Part shown: in pieces, positions 3-11,252 of the stretch
Layout: every line of letters starts with the position of its first letter
How positions within the stretch are numbered: the first letter of the stretch is position 1
From: a virus
Length of the DNA: 22,936 nucleotides
Virus record (IMG/VR): IMGVR_UViG_3300020419_000787
Span: 1-22,936 of that record
Reading direction: 5' to 3' (one strand)
Notes under the pieces: generated by a model
Databases searched by the model: none
What the model was told of the DNA's origin: nothing
The model's input: the letters and a program-made list of their open reading frames with translations, nothing else
Translations under genes and position numbers: made by a program

Positions 3-1631
3 TACGCACAGTTAATATCCGATTTAAGAAATGCCAATGCTGGATTAATAGGTTTTACTATTATGTTTCCAGAGGCTGATAGGTTTAAAGGTGATGAAGT
101 ATTTGCCTCATGGGTAAAAGATAATGGTATTATATTGGCTCAAGATGCAGATAATAGTGGAAGAAGTGCAAAGGCACCTTATGTGGGTACAGCTACGTTC
201 GGTACAGGAGATCCTTTAGACCATGTCATAAGATATAAAGGACTGGTTACAAATATATCAGAGATAGAAGCTGGTGCATGGGGCCATGGATTAATAAATG
301 GTATGCCAGAAGTTGATGGAATTGTAAGAAGAATACCACTGATATCTCAAATTAATAAAGAATTATATCCATCATTTGCATTAGAAACAATTAGAGTTTT
401 AAATGAAAAAATATCCTATACAATAAAGGTAAGTGATATAGGATTAGAAAGTATTGTGTTAAGACCTTTTGAAATACCTACTGGTACAAATGGTTCTATA
501 TGGATTAATCCTAATTATAAGTTTACGGAAATAAACTACGGGACCAAGTTGGAGAACTTGGAAGGTAAGACTGTTCTTGTTGGACTAACGGCAAAGGGGT
601 TGTCTTCCCAAATACCAACTCCTCAAGGATTAGTCTCGGCTCATCAGATTCAAGCTTCTTCAATACAGACGATACTGAATGGGGATCAAATAACCCGTCC
701 TGTGTGGGCTGATATTGCTGAGATAATGCTTTCTCTTTTGGGGGCTGTTCTGATTGTGGTGGGAATATATTACCTTCCCGTTTGGGCATCTGCTGTGCTC
801 TTCTTCTCCGTTGCAGGTTTATCTGCTTTCGGCGCATGGTGCGTCTGGAATGAATGGGGTATGCTCCTTGACCTTAGTTATCCACTAATATTATATATAC
901 TTTCTTTCACTTCAGGCTCATTCAATAATTTCTATAAGCAATTCATGCTCAGACAGCTGGTTAAGAAGCAGTTTGAAACTTATTTGGATCCTAGACAAGT
1001 TGCATTACTACAAAAAAATCCGGAACTTTTAAAACTTGGTGGTGAAAGAAAAGAGATGACCTTCATGTTTATGGACATTGTTGGATTTACTCCAATATCA
1101 GAACACTATAAGAATAATGATGACCCAGAAGGCCTTGTTGGTATTATAAATAATTATTTGGACCGGATGACTAAAATAATATTAAAGCATGGTGGTACAA
1201 TCGACAAGTATATGGGAGACTGTATTATGGCATTCTGGAACGCGCCATTACCTTGTGATAATCATGCGGAATGTGCAGTTAATGCTGCAGAGGAAATTGT
1301 AGAAACAGCAGATGAACTTATTAAAGAACTTGAAACACAAGGTTTACCTAGGATTGATATTGGTATTGGTATTAACACCGGCACATGCATCGTCGGAAAC
1401 ATGGGATCAGAATCTAGATTTGACTATTCCGTCATTGGAGATGCCGTCAACCTTGGTGCTAGACTCGAAGGCCAAACACGCAATTATGATGGGGTACGAG
1501 TGTTGTTGGGCCCAGAAACATATCGAGGCTGTAAAGAAAGAGCATTCTCAGAAGTCGATAGAATCCTTGTTAAGGGTAAATCAGAAAAGGTTACCATATA
1601 CACACCTCTCAATTCAACCGTTATTAGATAA
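3..1631 (+). CDS. CHASE2-domain membrane adenylate cyclase (class III), 5' partial
   Basis: The reading frame is open from the window edge, so the start lies upstream. Numbering from the Met at 63, residues up to about 205 form the end of an extracytoplasmic CHASE2 sensor (preceded by QLISDLRNANAGLIGFTIMF, then GHGLINGMPEVDGIVRRIPL). Residues 215-290 hold about three membrane helices, and 328-515 a full class III cyclase domain. Key residues are visible: metal aspartates D338 (MDIVGFT) and D386 (DKYMGD), purine-site K382, and transition-state N463 and R467. The second adenine-site position is Ser (S456) instead of Asp, as in class IIIb enzymes that carry Thr/Ser there. It should therefore be active and make cAMP on the cytoplasmic side of the host membrane; other cyclic nucleotides are possible. 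This architecture is common in bacteria but odd among T4-like genes. G+C is patchy along the gene. The domain call is secure; the role in infection is unknown. Confidence 0.93.
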   Translation, partial: YAQLISDLRNANAGLIGFTIMFPEADRFKGDEVFASWVKDNGIILAQDADNSGRSAKAPYVGTATFGTGDPLDHVIRYKGLVTNISEIEAGAWGHGLINGMPEVDGIVRRIPLISQINKELYPSFALETIRVLNEKISYTIKVSDIGLESIVLRPFEIPTGTNGSIWINPNYKFTEINYGTKLENLEGKTVLVGLTAKGLSSQIPTPQGLVSAHQIQASSIQTILNGDQITRPVWADIAEIMLSLLGAVLIVVGIYYLPVWASAVLFFSVAGLSAFGAWCVWNEWGMLLDLSYPLILYILSFTSGSFNNFYKQFMLRQLVKKQFETYLDPRQVALLQKNPELLKLGGERKEMTFMFMDIVGFTPISEHYKNNDDPEGLVGIINNYLDRMTKIILKHGGTIDKYMGDCIMAFWNAPLPCDNHAECAVNAAEEIVETADELIKELETQGLPRIDIGIGINTGTCIVGNMGSESRFDYSVIGDAVNLGARLEGQTRNYDGVRVLLGPETYRGCKERAFSEVDRILVKGKSEKVTIYTPLNSTVIR

Positions 1632-4094: not shown

Positions 4095-4258
4095 TGTCTT
4101 TTAAGTTGGCAACTACACGCCTTGAGGCTCTAAAACGAGCAGAACTGGCGGCTAAGAATCCAGAATTTAAAACCCTTTGGGCTAATAAAAGGCAGGAGTT
4201 AATAGAATTATTACAATCAGGAAGCTCCTATGATGAACTATCAGGAGAATTAATATGA
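4091..4258 (+). CDS. Tiny unknown helical protein (55 residues)
   Basis: Starts MMSFKLATTRLEALKRAELA; basic helix at first, then NPEFKTLWANKRQELIELLQ and an acidic end SYDELSGELI. Both ends share ATGA with neighbours, which implies coupled translation. No strong ribosome site of its own (an AGG lies just before the ATG). A helical segment of this type could bind another protein; no family recognised. Confidence 0.6.
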   Translation: MMSFKLATTRLEALKRAELAAKNPEFKTLWANKRQELIELLQSGSSYDELSGELI

Positions 4259-4416
4259 TCGAATTAATATTAGGTTGGGCGTTTACAATAGGTTTACTAG
4301 TTCTGGCCTATGTTGGAATACATATGGTTTTTGAAAAAGACGCTGGAAAATATATACCCCTTGTATGGGAAAAAAACGGCCTTCTTGACAAATTATTAAA
4401 GCTAATAAGGAAATAA
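4255..4416 (+). CDS. Tiny membrane protein (53 residues)
   Basis: A hydrophobic helix at about 3-25 (LILGWAFTIGLLVLAYVGIH) is followed by a lysine-rich tail, LLDKLLKLIRK at the end. This is a typical one-helix phage membrane protein; orientation would place the basic tail in the cytoplasm. AGGAGA is 7 nt before the ATG, and ATGA is shared with the previous stop. It may alter the host envelope or exclude other phages; this is inference. Confidence 0.65.
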   Translation: MIELILGWAFTIGLLVLAYVGIHMVFEKDAGKYIPLVWEKNGLLDKLLKLIRK

Positions 4417-4418
4417 AA

Positions 4419-4658
4419 ATGAGTAACGAAAATGTTTCTTATATGGAAATTTCATCATACTACGAAAAGAACCGTCAGGCTGATGTTGTTAGGTCGGTAG
4501 GACTTAACGAAAAGAATTATTGGGGAGTCCGGTACTGGGTTGATGGTAACCCATTAGGTATCGAATGGTACCCAACAAAATCTGCAGTATATGCAGAAGA
4601 TGCAGCAGAGAATTATATTCTCGGGATTAAGGAGTATCCCTCAAATCCTGCATTATAA
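4419..4658 (+). CDS. Small unknown soluble protein (79 residues)
   Basis: Sequence has MSNENVSYMEISSYYEK, then a beta-like segment NYWGVRYWVDGNPLGIEWYP and a short helix AVYAEDAAENYI. Rich in Tyr and Trp, acidic. AAGGAAA is about 6 nt before the ATG, two bases behind the stop of the membrane protein. It is the last gene of the P3 unit, directly before a strong terminator. Similar small proteins occur in marine phages, none with a function that I recognise. Confidence 0.7.
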   Translation: MSNENVSYMEISSYYEKNRQADVVRSVGLNEKNYWGVRYWVDGNPLGIEWYPTKSAVYAEDAAENYILGIKEYPSNPAL

Positions 4659-5951: not shown

Positions 5952-6188
5952 ATGATTGAAGAAAAAATAATGACTAGAAAAAGGTTCTCTGCTGCGGTAG
6001 AGGCCTTGGTTCAACAAAGTAAAGGAGTGTCTTATATAGAGGCAGCTGCTTATATTATAGAGGAAAGAGGAATGGATTTTAAAAGTTTAAACAGACTCCT
6101 ATCAGACTCTTTGAAACAAAAAATAGAGGCTGAGGCCACTAATCTAAATTTATTAAGACAAAAGAAGAAGAATACACTACCAATATGA
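5952..6188 (+). CDS. 33: Late-transcription co-activator gp33
   Basis: In T4, gp33 bridges host RNA polymerase and the gp45 sliding clamp so that sigma factor gp55 can start late transcription at TATAAATA. The 78-residue protein aligns by eye with the T4 gp33 core: GVSYIEAAAYIIEERG against GMSYLEATTAFLEENS, then KQKIEAEATNLNLLR against EKIQSEAIDENLL. It lacks the N-terminal stretch of T4 gp33 (112 residues). Gene order 33-59-32 is the same as in T4. AAAGGA precedes the ATG at 5952; an in-frame ATG at 5970 is a weaker alternative. ATGA is shared with gp59. The late octamers found to the right in this window are its expected targets. Confidence 0.88.
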   Translation: MIEEKIMTRKRFSAAVEALVQQSKGVSYIEAAAYIIEERGMDFKSLNRLLSDSLKQKIEAEATNLNLLRQKKKNTLPI

Positions 6189-6863: not shown

Positions 6864-7766
6864 ATGTCATTTGCAAATCTAAAGAGCTCACGAGGCTCGT
6901 CAATCGACAAACTCGTTAAGGCTGCAGAAGCAGTATCCACTAAAACAGAATCCAATTCCTACGCGGACGACAGATTCTGGAAACCTACCAGAGATAAAGC
7001 AGGAAACGGTTATGCTGTAGTCCGATTTTTGCCCGCGAGAGAAGGTGAAGACCTTCCTTGGGTAAGATATTGGGACCATGGCTTTAAAGGCCCTACTGGT
7101 TTATGGTATATTGAAAACTCTTTAACTTCCGTGGGACAAGATGATCCAGTATCAGAGATGAACTCTGTACTATGGAACTCTGGTCGTGACGAGGATAAAG
7201 CTATTGCAAGGGAAAGAAAAAGAAGGCTACATTATGTAAGTAATGTTCTTGTTGTTTCTGATCCCTCTAACCCAGAAAACGAAGGAAAGGTTTTCCTTTA
7301 TAAGTTCGGTAAAAAAATCTTTGATAAGATTATGGAATCAATGCAACCTGCATTTGAGGATGAAGAACCTATAAACCCTTACGACTTTTGGGAAGGTGCC
7401 GAGTTCAAAATCAAAATTAGAAAGGTAGAAGGTTGGGTAAACTATGATAAGTCAGAGTTTGCACCACAGTCTGCTCTCTATAGTGGTGATGAATCAAGAC
7501 TTGAAGAAGTCTATAATAAACTATACTCACTACAGGATTTTCTCGATCCTAAGAACTACAAGTCATATGATGAGCTCAAGTCCAAGATGAATAAAGTTTT
7601 GGGTATTGATGCTGGTGTCATGGCTCCAGCGCCATCTGTTTCAGATGTAATGGAAGCACCAACTATGCAGACTGCTGCACCAGTTGTTGACACTCCAGTG
7701 GAAAGTAGTAGTGATGATGAGGATGAAACCTTATCTTATTTTGCTAAACTTGCAAAAGAGAGTTAA
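6864..7766 (+). CDS. 32: Single-stranded DNA binding protein gp32
   Basis: gp32 coats single-stranded DNA during replication, recombination and repair. The 300 residues include the basic N-terminal cooperativity region (SFANLKSSRGSSIDKLVK), the core (DDRFWKPTRDKAGNGYAVVRFLP; WVRYWDHGF; VSNVLVVSDP), the strongly conserved ENEGKVFLYKFGKKIFDKI, and an acidic tail ending SSDDEDETLSYFAKLAKES that would contact gp59 and polymerase. The His/Cys zinc site of T4 gp32 is missing: there is no cysteine in the protein, and the zinc loop is replaced by SLTSVGQDDPVSEMNSVLWN, as in marine T4-like homologues known to me. It has its own promoter and terminator, so it is a one-gene unit. Confidence 0.96.
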   Translation: MSFANLKSSRGSSIDKLVKAAEAVSTKTESNSYADDRFWKPTRDKAGNGYAVVRFLPAREGEDLPWVRYWDHGFKGPTGLWYIENSLTSVGQDDPVSEMNSVLWNSGRDEDKAIARERKRRLHYVSNVLVVSDPSNPENEGKVFLYKFGKKIFDKIMESMQPAFEDEEPINPYDFWEGAEFKIKIRKVEGWVNYDKSEFAPQSALYSGDESRLEEVYNKLYSLQDFLDPKNYKSYDELKSKMNKVLGIDAGVMAPAPSVSDVMEAPTMQTAAPVVDTPVESSSDDEDETLSYFAKLAKES

Positions 7767-7798: not shown

Positions 7799-7827
7799 AA
7801 GGGACGGCTGAGGTCGTCCCTTTTTTT
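7799..7827 (+). terminator. Rho-independent terminator of gp32
   Basis: AAGGGACG (7799-7806) pairs with CGTCCCTT (7815-7822), loop of 8, followed by a run of seven T (7821-7827). It stands 32 nt after the gp32 stop. A weaker outer stem (AAAAACC with GGTTTTT, before the hairpin) is also possible. Confidence 0.93.
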
Positions 7828-7828
7828 G

Positions 7829-7836
7829 TATAAATA
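7829..7836 (+). promoter_or_regulatory. T4-type late promoter (TATAAATA) of the riboswitch unit
   Basis: Perfect TATAAATA followed by CT, two bases behind the gp32 terminator T-run. With the usual T4 late spacing, RNA would start near 7842, precisely at the first stem of the glutamine-riboswitch-like element. Confidence 0.8.
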
Positions 7837-7842
7837 CTAATA

Positions 7843-7888
7843 CGTTCATCCCGTTCGGGACGGAAGTAAGGATTGGCCTGAAGGAACG
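7843..7888 (+). promoter_or_regulatory. Glutamine riboswitch (glnA / Downstream-peptide type aptamer)
   Basis: The sequence carries the aptamer signature CGTTCATCCC ... GGGACGGAAGTAAGG ... GAAGGAACGC. Stem P1 is CGTTC (7843-7847) with GAACG (7884-7888), P2 is TCCC (7849-7852) with GGGA (7857-7860) over GTTC, and P3 is AGG (7869-7871) with CCT (7877-7879). The glnA and Downstream-peptide RNAs are known glutamine-binding aptamers of cyanobacteria and marine metagenomes, the latter placed before short peptides, as here. A strong AAAGGAGG site follows at 7907-7914. CATCC (7847-7851) could also pair with GGATG (7913-7917) at the ribosome site, a possible switch. Confidence 0.88.
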
Positions 7889-7919
7889 CATCTTAACTTT
7901 TTAAATAAAGGAGGATGTT

Positions 7920-8081
7920 ATGGCTCATTATCGAGGTGTTAAATATACTCCCCAAAAAGATACTAAGGCTACTCCCACTCAAAGTGGTGTGTATCGTGGT
8001 ATTAAGTGGGTAAGTGTAAACCAAGAAAAGTTGCCTAAGAGACAAAGCGGTATTTATCGTGGCGTTAAATGGGTTGCTTAG
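7920..8081 (+). CDS. 53-residue peptide with three YRG(V/I)K(Y/W) repeats, riboswitch-controlled
   Basis: The product holds three copies of the motif: HYRGVKYTP, VYRGIKWVS and IYRGVKWVA, joined by polar linkers of about 15 residues (KDTKATPTQSG; NQEKLPKRQSG). The YRG motif resembles DUF4278, found in short cyanobacterial and cyanophage proteins, and peptides of this kind are those named in 'Downstream-peptide' RNAs. The ATG is 5 nt after AAAGGAGG, one of the best ribosome sites in the window. It is the only gene between the riboswitch and the UUCG terminator. Translation should respond to host glutamine, and late in infection given the promoter. Some cyanobacterial glutamine-controlled small proteins act on nitrogen metabolism; whether this one does is inference. 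Confidence 0.87.
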   Translation: MAHYRGVKYTPQKDTKATPTQSGVYRGIKWVSVNQEKLPKRQSGIYRGVKWVA

Positions 8082-8097
8082 TATTAAGAAACACGTT

Positions 8098-8119
8098 GAA
8101 AGGACCTTCGGGTCCTTTC
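8098..8119. terminator. Bidirectional UUCG-loop terminator
   Basis: GAAAGGACC (8098-8106) pairs perfectly with GGTCCTTTC (8111-8119) around a TTCG loop, with TTCTT after it. It separates the rightward peptide gene from the leftward tape measure gene, and T-rich tracts on both strands suit termination from each side. Confidence 0.88.
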
Positions 8120-10360: not shown

Positions 10361-10554
10361 TATGTTCTCCTTCTATTCTCTTTTTTAATTCGTTCATTCT
10401 CTTCCTTTATCCAATCTTGTAAGAGTGAAACGTAAATCTCCCTCTCCCAAGGTAACATGTCGTTTAGTTCAGTCAAACTATACTTGTGATGTTGCATCAT
10501 CGCGAAGTTAGTTTTATAATGATTAACTAAACTATCATGAGAGAGGCCTACGTA
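10360..10554 (-). CDS. 51: gp51-like extension of gp26, reached by -1 frameshift
   Basis: The -1 frame continues across the gp26 stop for 64 codons: YVGLSHDSLVNHYKTNFAMM, then QHHKYSLTELNDMLPWEREI and an acidic/basic helical end. The QHHKYSLTEL...PWERE text is, from memory, a small conserved protein after gp26 in marine T4-likes. There is no ribosome site before its only plausible ATG pair (in FAMMQ), whereas the frame joins gp26 precisely at a run of seven T. The best reading is a fusion of 297 residues (gp26 residues 1-233 plus 64), analogous to tail assembly chaperones such as lambda G/GT and P2 E/E'. It stops at the GTG start of the EF-hand gene. Separate translation is the alternative. 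Confidence 0.7.
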   Translation of the reverse strand, partial: YVGLSHDSLVNHYKTNFAMMQHHKYSLTELNDMLPWEREIYVSLLQDWIKEENERIKKENRRRT

Positions 10555-11252
10555 AAAAAACTTTGTAGTCCTCTTAATTCAGTTTCATTTTCTGTTCCAC
10601 AATTTACACATTTAAATTGAATACTTGTTTTTAATGCAGGCATATCTTCAAAGAAAGCTGAAACCTTTTGGAACTGAGCCGTATTTAACGATTCAATAAA
10701 TTCCTTCATCTGTTTTTCGCCTTCATTATCAGAAGTATAAACCCCATCATCATCGAATACACTTACAATACATTTCATAATAATATCAAATGCTGTTTCA
10801 ATGGATTCTTCCTTGTTAGGATCAATACTTGATACGTCATCAAAAGATGGATATCTCATTTCTATTCCTACAGTATCTGTAATCATAACCACATTATTAT
10901 CTTCGGGTACTTCCACTCCAATATCGTTGAAGTCTACAGTTACATCATTTTGTGTTTCACAATTATCACATTTAACTTTAAGACCTACAGATTCTCCAAC
11001 CGATTTTGATCTAAGTTGTAAGAATAAGCTTTCTATGTCAAATGTAGCCAATTTATTTACATTAATATCATCTAAAACACAAGACGATATCATTTCTTTT
11101 GTTGCCTTAACAATCTGTTTCTGATCGTTAGACTCTAATGCCATCATTAATACCTTTTCTTCTTTTACAAGATAAGGTCTAAAAGAAACCTTTTTCCCTG
11201 TCGAAGGGATAGTTGTTTCATAACTGACACTATTCAGTTTTGGTAAAGCCAT
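10548..11252 (-). CDS. 26: Baseplate hub / tail assembly chaperone gp26 (T4_baseplate family)
   Basis: 234 residues (T4 gp26 has 208). It opens MALPKLNSVSYETTIPSTGK, then VSFRPYLVKEEKVLMMALES, the family hallmark, and contains FDIESLFLQLRSKSVGE. Two CxxC pairs, C95-DN-C98 and C215-VN-C218 (followed by G), would bind one zinc as a ribbon. It ends LRGLQSFFT. In T4, gp26 and gp51 assist hub assembly before the tape measure protein and tube join. The ribosome site AGGAG stands 9 nt before the ATG. The final codons contain the slippery site, so a share of ribosomes should make the longer gp26-51 protein. Confidence 0.9.
   Translation of the reverse strand: MALPKLNSVSYETTIPSTGKKVSFRPYLVKEEKVLMMALESNDQKQIVKATKEMISSCVLDDINVNKLATFDIESLFLQLRSKSVGESVGLKVKCDNCETQNDVTVDFNDIGVEVPEDNNVVMITDTVGIEMRYPSFDDVSSIDPNKEESIETAFDIIMKCIVSVFDDDGVYTSDNEGEKQMKEFIESLNTAQFQKVSAFFEDMPALKTSIQFKCVNCGTENETELRGLQSFFT
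10554..10560 (-). other. Slippery site T TTT TTT for programmed -1 frameshift
   Basis: Read on the - strand, gp26 ends AG-T TTT TTT ACG TAG. Both P- and A-site Phe tRNAs re-pair perfectly after a one-base backward slip, and the stop follows within two codons. An AAGAGGA sequence (10569-10575) lies 8 nt before it, comparable to the stimulatory Shine-Dalgarno element of dnaX. A weak stem TTAGTT/AACTAA lies downstream. Confidence 0.65.

Follow-up and report, generated by a model that had tools for sequence, protein, structure and literature searches.

The window analysed here, by which is meant the whole stretch of 22,936 bases, is a viral contig that carries T4-type genes for gp33, gp59 and gp32, all of them upstream of a compact regulatory cassette (Table 1). 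An intrinsic terminator separates the gp32 transcript from this cassette, in which a T4-type late octamer is followed by an aptamer of the glutamine riboswitch type, a Shine-Dalgarno (SD) sequence, an open reading frame (ORF) of 53 codons and a second terminator. The strong ribosome site and the 53-residue ORF described in the original prediction, which had been made from the sequence alone, were both found, with AGGAGG ahead of the ATG and the repeats YRGVKY, YRGIKW and YRGVKW encoded by the ORF. The UUCG terminator that was said to close the unit is also present, but it lies beyond position 8081, where the unit had been made to end. No sigma-70-like promoter was found at the aptamer on the + strand of the window, and the scan of the window returned no terminator-like site between the aptamer and the start codon. 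This T4-like phage contig also encodes, at 63-1631 (+ strand), a protein with CHASE2 and class III adenylate/guanylate cyclase domains, a relative of which (47% identity over 524 aa) occurs in L025, where aptamers stand in tandem.

Table 1. Features of the cassette and of its T4-type neighbours (window coordinates)
Feature	Positions	Strand	Basis or remark
gp33, late-transcription coactivator	5952..6188	+	PF16805, 78.1 bits; context for T4-type late transcription
gp32 single-stranded DNA-binding protein, upstream neighbour	6864..7766	+	PF08804, 139.8 bits; tblastn
Intrinsic terminator that ends the gp32 transcript	7799..7822	+	10-bp stem and T run; conserved in the related viral locus L002
T4-type late octamer TATAAATA	7829..7836	+	Sequence match; predicted RNA start ~7842
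Type 1 glutamine riboswitch aptamer	7841..7892	+	RF01739; P1 7843-7847/7884-7888, P2 7849-7852/7857-7860
Anti-SD strand GCAUCUU	7888..7894	+	Starts on the last base of P1; minimum free energy (MFE) fold, pair probabilities, comparative pairing
SD AGGAGG	7909-7914	+	AGGAUGU (7912-7918) pairs with 7888-7894; region 7909..7918
53-aa DUF4278 micropeptide ORF, three YRG repeats	7920..8081	+	PF14105; ATG at 7920
UUCG-loop intrinsic terminator GAAAGGACC-UUCG-GGUCCUUUC	8098..8119	+	Closes the cassette

The aptamer and the DUF4278 peptide

The covariance search reported the window aptamer as RF01739 with 57.4 bits against a gathering score of 35 (E 1.8e-10 among 4227 Rfam families, both strands). The match is full length (model positions 1-53 of 53) and contains zero broken or non-standard pairs, in agreement with the near-perfect core that had been noticed by eye. 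By sequence and structure, the RNA is a type 1 glutamine riboswitch, with glutamine as the presumed ligand by homology. Glutamine aptamers have been described ahead of ORFs of 17-100 aa (PMC2864571), and the ORFs found behind Downstream-peptide (RF01704) aptamers include DUF4278 (PMC6316151). The window aptamer shares with the Downstream-peptide type 2 switch of picocyanobacteria (RF01704, yfr6) its location ahead of a small ORF, but it is reported as RF01739 instead. If the aptamer were degenerate or read another ligand, the cassette would be translated constitutively late in infection; the strong SD of the ORF and the assignment of the ligand by homology are compatible with this, yet the fit of the core to the model without a broken pair and the conservation of P1, core and platform across many phages make it highly improbable.

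The ORF encodes a DUF4278 protein (PF14105, 33.0 bits against a cut-off of 25.3), whose residues 3-50 correspond to positions 4-56 of the 57 in the profile. The YRG-repeat peptide had been presented as new; the match above the cut-off rules out a new repeat protein, and the aptamer-linked proteins of cyanobacteria commonly have three YRG repeats as well. DUF4278 genes are indeed the main association of cyanobacterial glutamine riboswitches (PMC6316151), and of 123 bacterial aptamer loci that were gathered by DNA pattern and examined, 61 lie ahead of a YRG protein, commonly with three repeats. All three YRG are invariant in 18 relatives. The relative encoded in L002 has 89% amino acid identity and the same context; the dN/dS between the two ORFs, 0.84 from 8 codon differences, is uninformative. 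In an AlphaFold model of the peptide, each YRG is at the centre of a short beta hairpin, three in all; the confidence is low (pTM 0.28), insufficient for a fold search, and no solved structure of a relative was found. A search of the genome contigs with the peptide gave no match, and comparison of the window cassette with isolate phages, by DNA and tblastn, gave no real relative.

The same aptamer class with a downstream DUF4278 is present at gifB of Synechocystis and at other cyanobacterial aptamer-DUF4278 genes, and many cyanobacterial YRG leaders have a blocking layout similar to that of the window. The gifB product, IF17, inactivates glutamine synthetase (GS) according to the account of Klaehn et al. 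2018 given in PMC6316151. The two systems differ in the promoter, which is an NtcA-controlled host promoter at gifB and a phage late promoter in the window, and in the organism, as the host of the window phage is probably not a cyanobacterium. They also differ in the protein: DUF4278 residues 3-50 cover the 53-aa ORF with no further domain, and the C-terminal IF7-like half of IF17 (GifB), the part that inhibits GS, is absent. Since the DUF4278 half is dispensable for the function of IF17, although it stabilises the protein (PMC6316151), direct inhibition of GS is not the first expectation for the phage peptide. We infer that it is a small nitrogen-status effector acting through protein binding.

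Promoter spacing and the blocking helix

The octamer TATAAATA occurs 9 times in the window against 5.65 expected; it is not rare in itself and what matters is its position relative to P1. Its last base lies 7 nt upstream of P1 (7843), and the spacing is the same in L002. In T4 late promoters, roughly one turn of the helix separates the TATA box from the start (PMC2988020), and application of this register gives a predicted +1 at 7842, immediately ahead of P1. The original prediction that the octamer is set so that the RNA should begin at P1 is supported by the 7-nt spacing, which is kept in L002 and in about half of the scorable viral loci among the matches listed. This comparison is based on at least 120 viral stretches with the aptamer core, found in viral contigs with one strict core pattern, and the counts describe that subset. 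An aptamer was considered scorable when enough upstream sequence was available and it was not the second aptamer of a tandem (n = 108 among the matches listed). TAAATA with its first base between -22 and -8 relative to P1 was present in 57 of these 108 aptamers, a count that includes near-identical contigs, whereas the same criterion applied at random positions of the same contigs gave 1.4%. The start of TAAATA was mostly at -12 or -13 from P1. Late-type sites were distributed, among the matches listed, over 11 of 15 peptide clusters (GTSGY 15/16, DPRLQ 6/8, NPFYP 5/11, LWC 15/42, YRG 4/17, plus smaller clusters). What defines a T4-type late promoter at the level of sequence, the octamer and an encoded gp33, is found in the window, and the start and timing are predicted. 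The idea that a phage pairs glutamine sensing with late transcription is upheld by these results, the gp33 of the window (PF16805, 78 bits) included.

In the predicted ligand-free fold (MFE), GCAUCUU pairs with AGGAUGU over the SD, and the inner pairs of this blocking helix have probabilities of 0.96-0.99 in the window leader. The fold of the leader showed no extra stability when compared with shuffles (z -0.18). The helix was evaluated across viruses by taking as partner the 16 bases before the start codon and by permuting the partners 1000 times. Among the matches listed, 72 of 89 distinct viral leaders can form 5 bp or more between the 3′ edge of P1 and the ribosome site; with permuted partners, this was the case in 42 leaders on average and in 53 at most. 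The mean duplex energy was -9.4 kcal/mol, compared with -6.9 kcal/mol for permuted partners. In the same set of listed matches, the third base after the last base of P1 was engaged in C-G (52 leaders), T-A (11), T-G (7) or A-T (2) pairs, and the fourth in C-G (41), T-A (27) or T-G (4) pairs. When the helix was anchored on GGAG, no signal emerged (48-54% paired at adjacent shifts), since its position with respect to the SD is variable, and register-free pairing tests were used instead.

The putative expression platform is a covarying anti-SD helix that departs from the edge of P1 and is yet compatible with P1 in the energy model, where the two overlap by one base and coexist. A consequence of this arrangement is that the direction of the switch is not readable from the secondary structure. 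A platform based on transcription termination was ruled out by the absence of a terminator between aptamer and ORF, and control is for this reason expected at translation.

Polarity and origin of the proposed switch

Nitrogen status is thought to limit the production of marine phages and, to our knowledge, little has been learnt about the way in which a phage reads it. The reading of the cassette that we favour, and regard as reasonably probable, is a translational ON switch that is transcribed late and, gated by glutamine, controls a DUF4278 micropeptide. A T4-type late RNA polymerase, for which the window encodes gp33, would start at about 7842, and the mRNA would begin at the glutamine aptamer. 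At low glutamine, GCAUCUU on the 3′ side of P1 would pair with AGGAUGU at the ribosome site and translation would be blocked. Bound glutamine would firm P1 and withdraw the base that P1 shares with the blocking helix, favouring an open ribosome site, and the micropeptide would be produced in late infection if glutamine is abundant. The aptamer, the position of the promoter, the covarying blocking helix and the membership in DUF4278, on which this model is built, can be read in the sequence itself. The late timing in the cell, like the function of the peptide, is presumed. If the model is true, a common group of marine phages would read host glutamine by means of RNA and would gate tiny late proteins with it. 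As switch, promoter and peptide lie within ~300 bases, direct testing is feasible.

Homology suggests glutamine as the ligand and ON as the polarity, which we consider quite likely provided that the switch works. The opposite polarity would result if glutamine-bound P1 stacked on the adjacent blocking helix and stabilised it, so that translation would be turned OFF and the peptide made at low glutamine. The two helices do abut and coexist in the energy model, and marine heterotrophs have the same aptamer before Amt, GS and GOGAT genes, where repression by glutamine is the expected logic. However, the leaders of these genes in heterotrophs lack the short blocking helix, which was found in 0 of 6 GS/GOGAT leaders and in 3 of 15 Amt leaders, a number equal to that with permuted partners. 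Cyanobacterial DUF4278 leaders, which belong to the glutamine-activated gifB family, often have it: the layout of the YRG leaders is the same as in the window (GCGCCUC...GGAGGCG) and the helix is present in 40 of 61, a modest excess over the permuted mean of 32. The type 1 switch of gifB is activated by glutamine (PMC6316151), its own leader being outside the leader alignment. Because the cyanobacterial YRG leaders are alike, gifB is activated and the GS, GOGAT and Amt leaders are unlike, the bacterial comparison leans towards ON and makes an OFF switch rather unlikely.

A cyanophage origin, to which the aptamer might point, was dropped. The nearest relative of gp32 is in Synechococcus phage ACG-2014a (55%, tblastn) and that of the protein encoded at 10548-11249 in Synechococcus phage Bellamy, but gp6 is nearest to that of Melnitz (40%) and then to those of pelagiphages (39%). 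In the tree of this baseplate protein, a split with 100/98 support places the window with the SAR11/OM43 phages HTVC008M, Mosig and Melnitz, whereas two cyanophages lie on the opposite side together with the single-cell virus AG-345-P14. Given this grouping, a cyanobacterial PII/IF target is not to be assumed. The triple-YRG phage peptides group with proteins from SAR86 and Porticoccaceae metagenome bins (MAGs), with weak support and short sequences. Taken together, the gp6 and peptide trees lean towards a host other than a cyanobacterium, which is regarded as likely.

The cassette might also be a moron, that is, a riboswitch and DUF4278 gene taken whole, leader included, from a marine bacterium and devoid of a specific glutamine role in the phage cycle. 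MAG contigs of SAR86 and Porticoccaceae do contain tandem glutamine aptamers with triple-YRG genes, and the phage peptides group with these MAG proteins, apart from the cyanobacterial ones, with the weak support mentioned above. A phage late promoter at a fixed spacing that recurs across unrelated peptide clusters argues against this origin, as does the conservation of leader and peptide in L002, though over a short distance in time; the moron is therefore distinctly unlikely, and the late ON switch is retained as the preferred reading. The bacterial cassettes themselves, each a tandem glutamine riboswitch with a triple-YRG DUF4278 gene, are located at 7394-7742 (+ strand) of L350 and 4137-4476 (- strand) of L385, which are MAG contigs of Porticoccaceae and SAR86. 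In L385 the cassette is surrounded by bacterial genes; L350 has an integrase-like ORF near a tRNA and may be an island. A search for gp32 in both MAG genomes was silent, as was its control. Aptamer-DUF4278 pairs thus extend beyond cyanobacteria.

Glutamine aptamers and micropeptides in other viruses

Near-uniqueness among phages is not supported, given the number of viral stretches found and the switches already published for the T4-like phages Melnitz (OM43) and Mosig (SAR11) (PMC9004378); cyanophage glutamine riboswitches have also been mentioned (PMC9964418, PMC9602691). The window resembles Melnitz and Mosig in the aptamer class, in the T4-like marine background and in the tiny ORF that follows each aptamer; in Mosig, TAAATA likewise lies at the distance of a late promoter. 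The difference lies in the micropeptide families, as Melnitz has a 32-aa LWC peptide and Mosig a 51-aa DPRMQ peptide. The aptamer class, its link with DUF4278, the small ORFs behind glutamine aptamers and the presence of glutamine riboswitches in T4-like phages are already known. In the open-access papers searched, no description was found of a fixed late-promoter spacing, of a blocking helix common to the leaders or of the variety of micropeptides; what is new here, as judged from sequence comparison, is the generality of the late promoter-aptamer-micropeptide arrangement among marine viruses.

Among the matches listed, viral glutamine aptamers precede at least 11 clusters of ORFs of 28-78 aa. 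These include the clusters FWC/LWC (~30 aa), GTSGY (64 aa), NPFYP (~49 aa) and DPRLQ (50 aa), which are represented in L008, L024, L003, L013, L014 and relatives. None of these four clusters has a Pfam match, and only GTSGY has a PHROG match; for many such micropeptides, the cassette would serve as a handle for finding their function. Tandem glutamine aptamers before one small ORF were observed in L025, L052, L077, L095, L111, L115, L350 and L385, and in phages the tandem is often located behind a single late-type octamer.

Cultured cyanophages (P-SSM2, Syn33, S-CAM8, S-PM2 and others) have, like the window, glutamine-type aptamers followed by a DUF4278 ORF in the nrdB-talC region. Unlike that of the window, these aptamers are tandem variants that mostly score below the Rfam cut-off: behind nrdB, RF01739 matched with E<=1 in 10 of 15 genomes (1 above the cut-off) and a DUF4278-like match with E<=1 was obtained in 14 of 15 (4 above the cut-off). 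In all genomes examined except S-PM2, which has an ordinary hairpin in its place, the second aptamer is split by an ORF of ~53 aa, nested in the loop of P2, whose product is phrog_504. This ORF is opened by CGTTCATCCCATG; its start codon is located where the 5′ strand of P2 ends, and its last codons (WDAND and stop) form the 3′ half of the second aptamer. P2 covaries across the nested ORF, the four inner pairs being kept in 121 distinct cases with 13 exchanges of T-A for C-G, and pairing was observed in 242 of 242 tested cells compared with a permuted maximum of 235. A sigma-70-like promoter accompanies aptamer 1 in 67 of 97 nested cassettes, and no late octamer was found at that position in them. 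The nested-ORF loci of this region comprise L139, L141-L148 and L165-L284, with the DUF4278 ORF downstream.

A possible generalisation, which we put forward tentatively, is that marine T4-like phages share a device in which a late promoter and a glutamine aptamer, with the edge of P1 gating the ribosome site, would serve at least 11 clusters of micropeptides and allow them to be made only at high glutamine late in infection. The cultured cyanophages would have an early counterpart, with sigma-70-like promoters and an ORF embedded in the second aptamer.

The switch of Melnitz has been interpreted as controlling tmRNA (PMC9004378). It is located at 1501-1549 of L407 (46398-46446 of the record), on the 3′ side of the tmRNA, whose Rfam end is at 1448 or 1493 of L407, and directly before an unannotated 32-aa ORF of the LWC family (MTLYQQWCYLKAQ...). 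The reading as a control of tmRNA should be rechecked. In alphaproteobacterial Amt leaders (L289, L303, L325, L333 and relatives), the first element is succeeded by another that is aptamer-like, CGTTCAAT...TCGGAAGTAGG...GAAGGAACGCGG, and the platform is unlike that of the phages.
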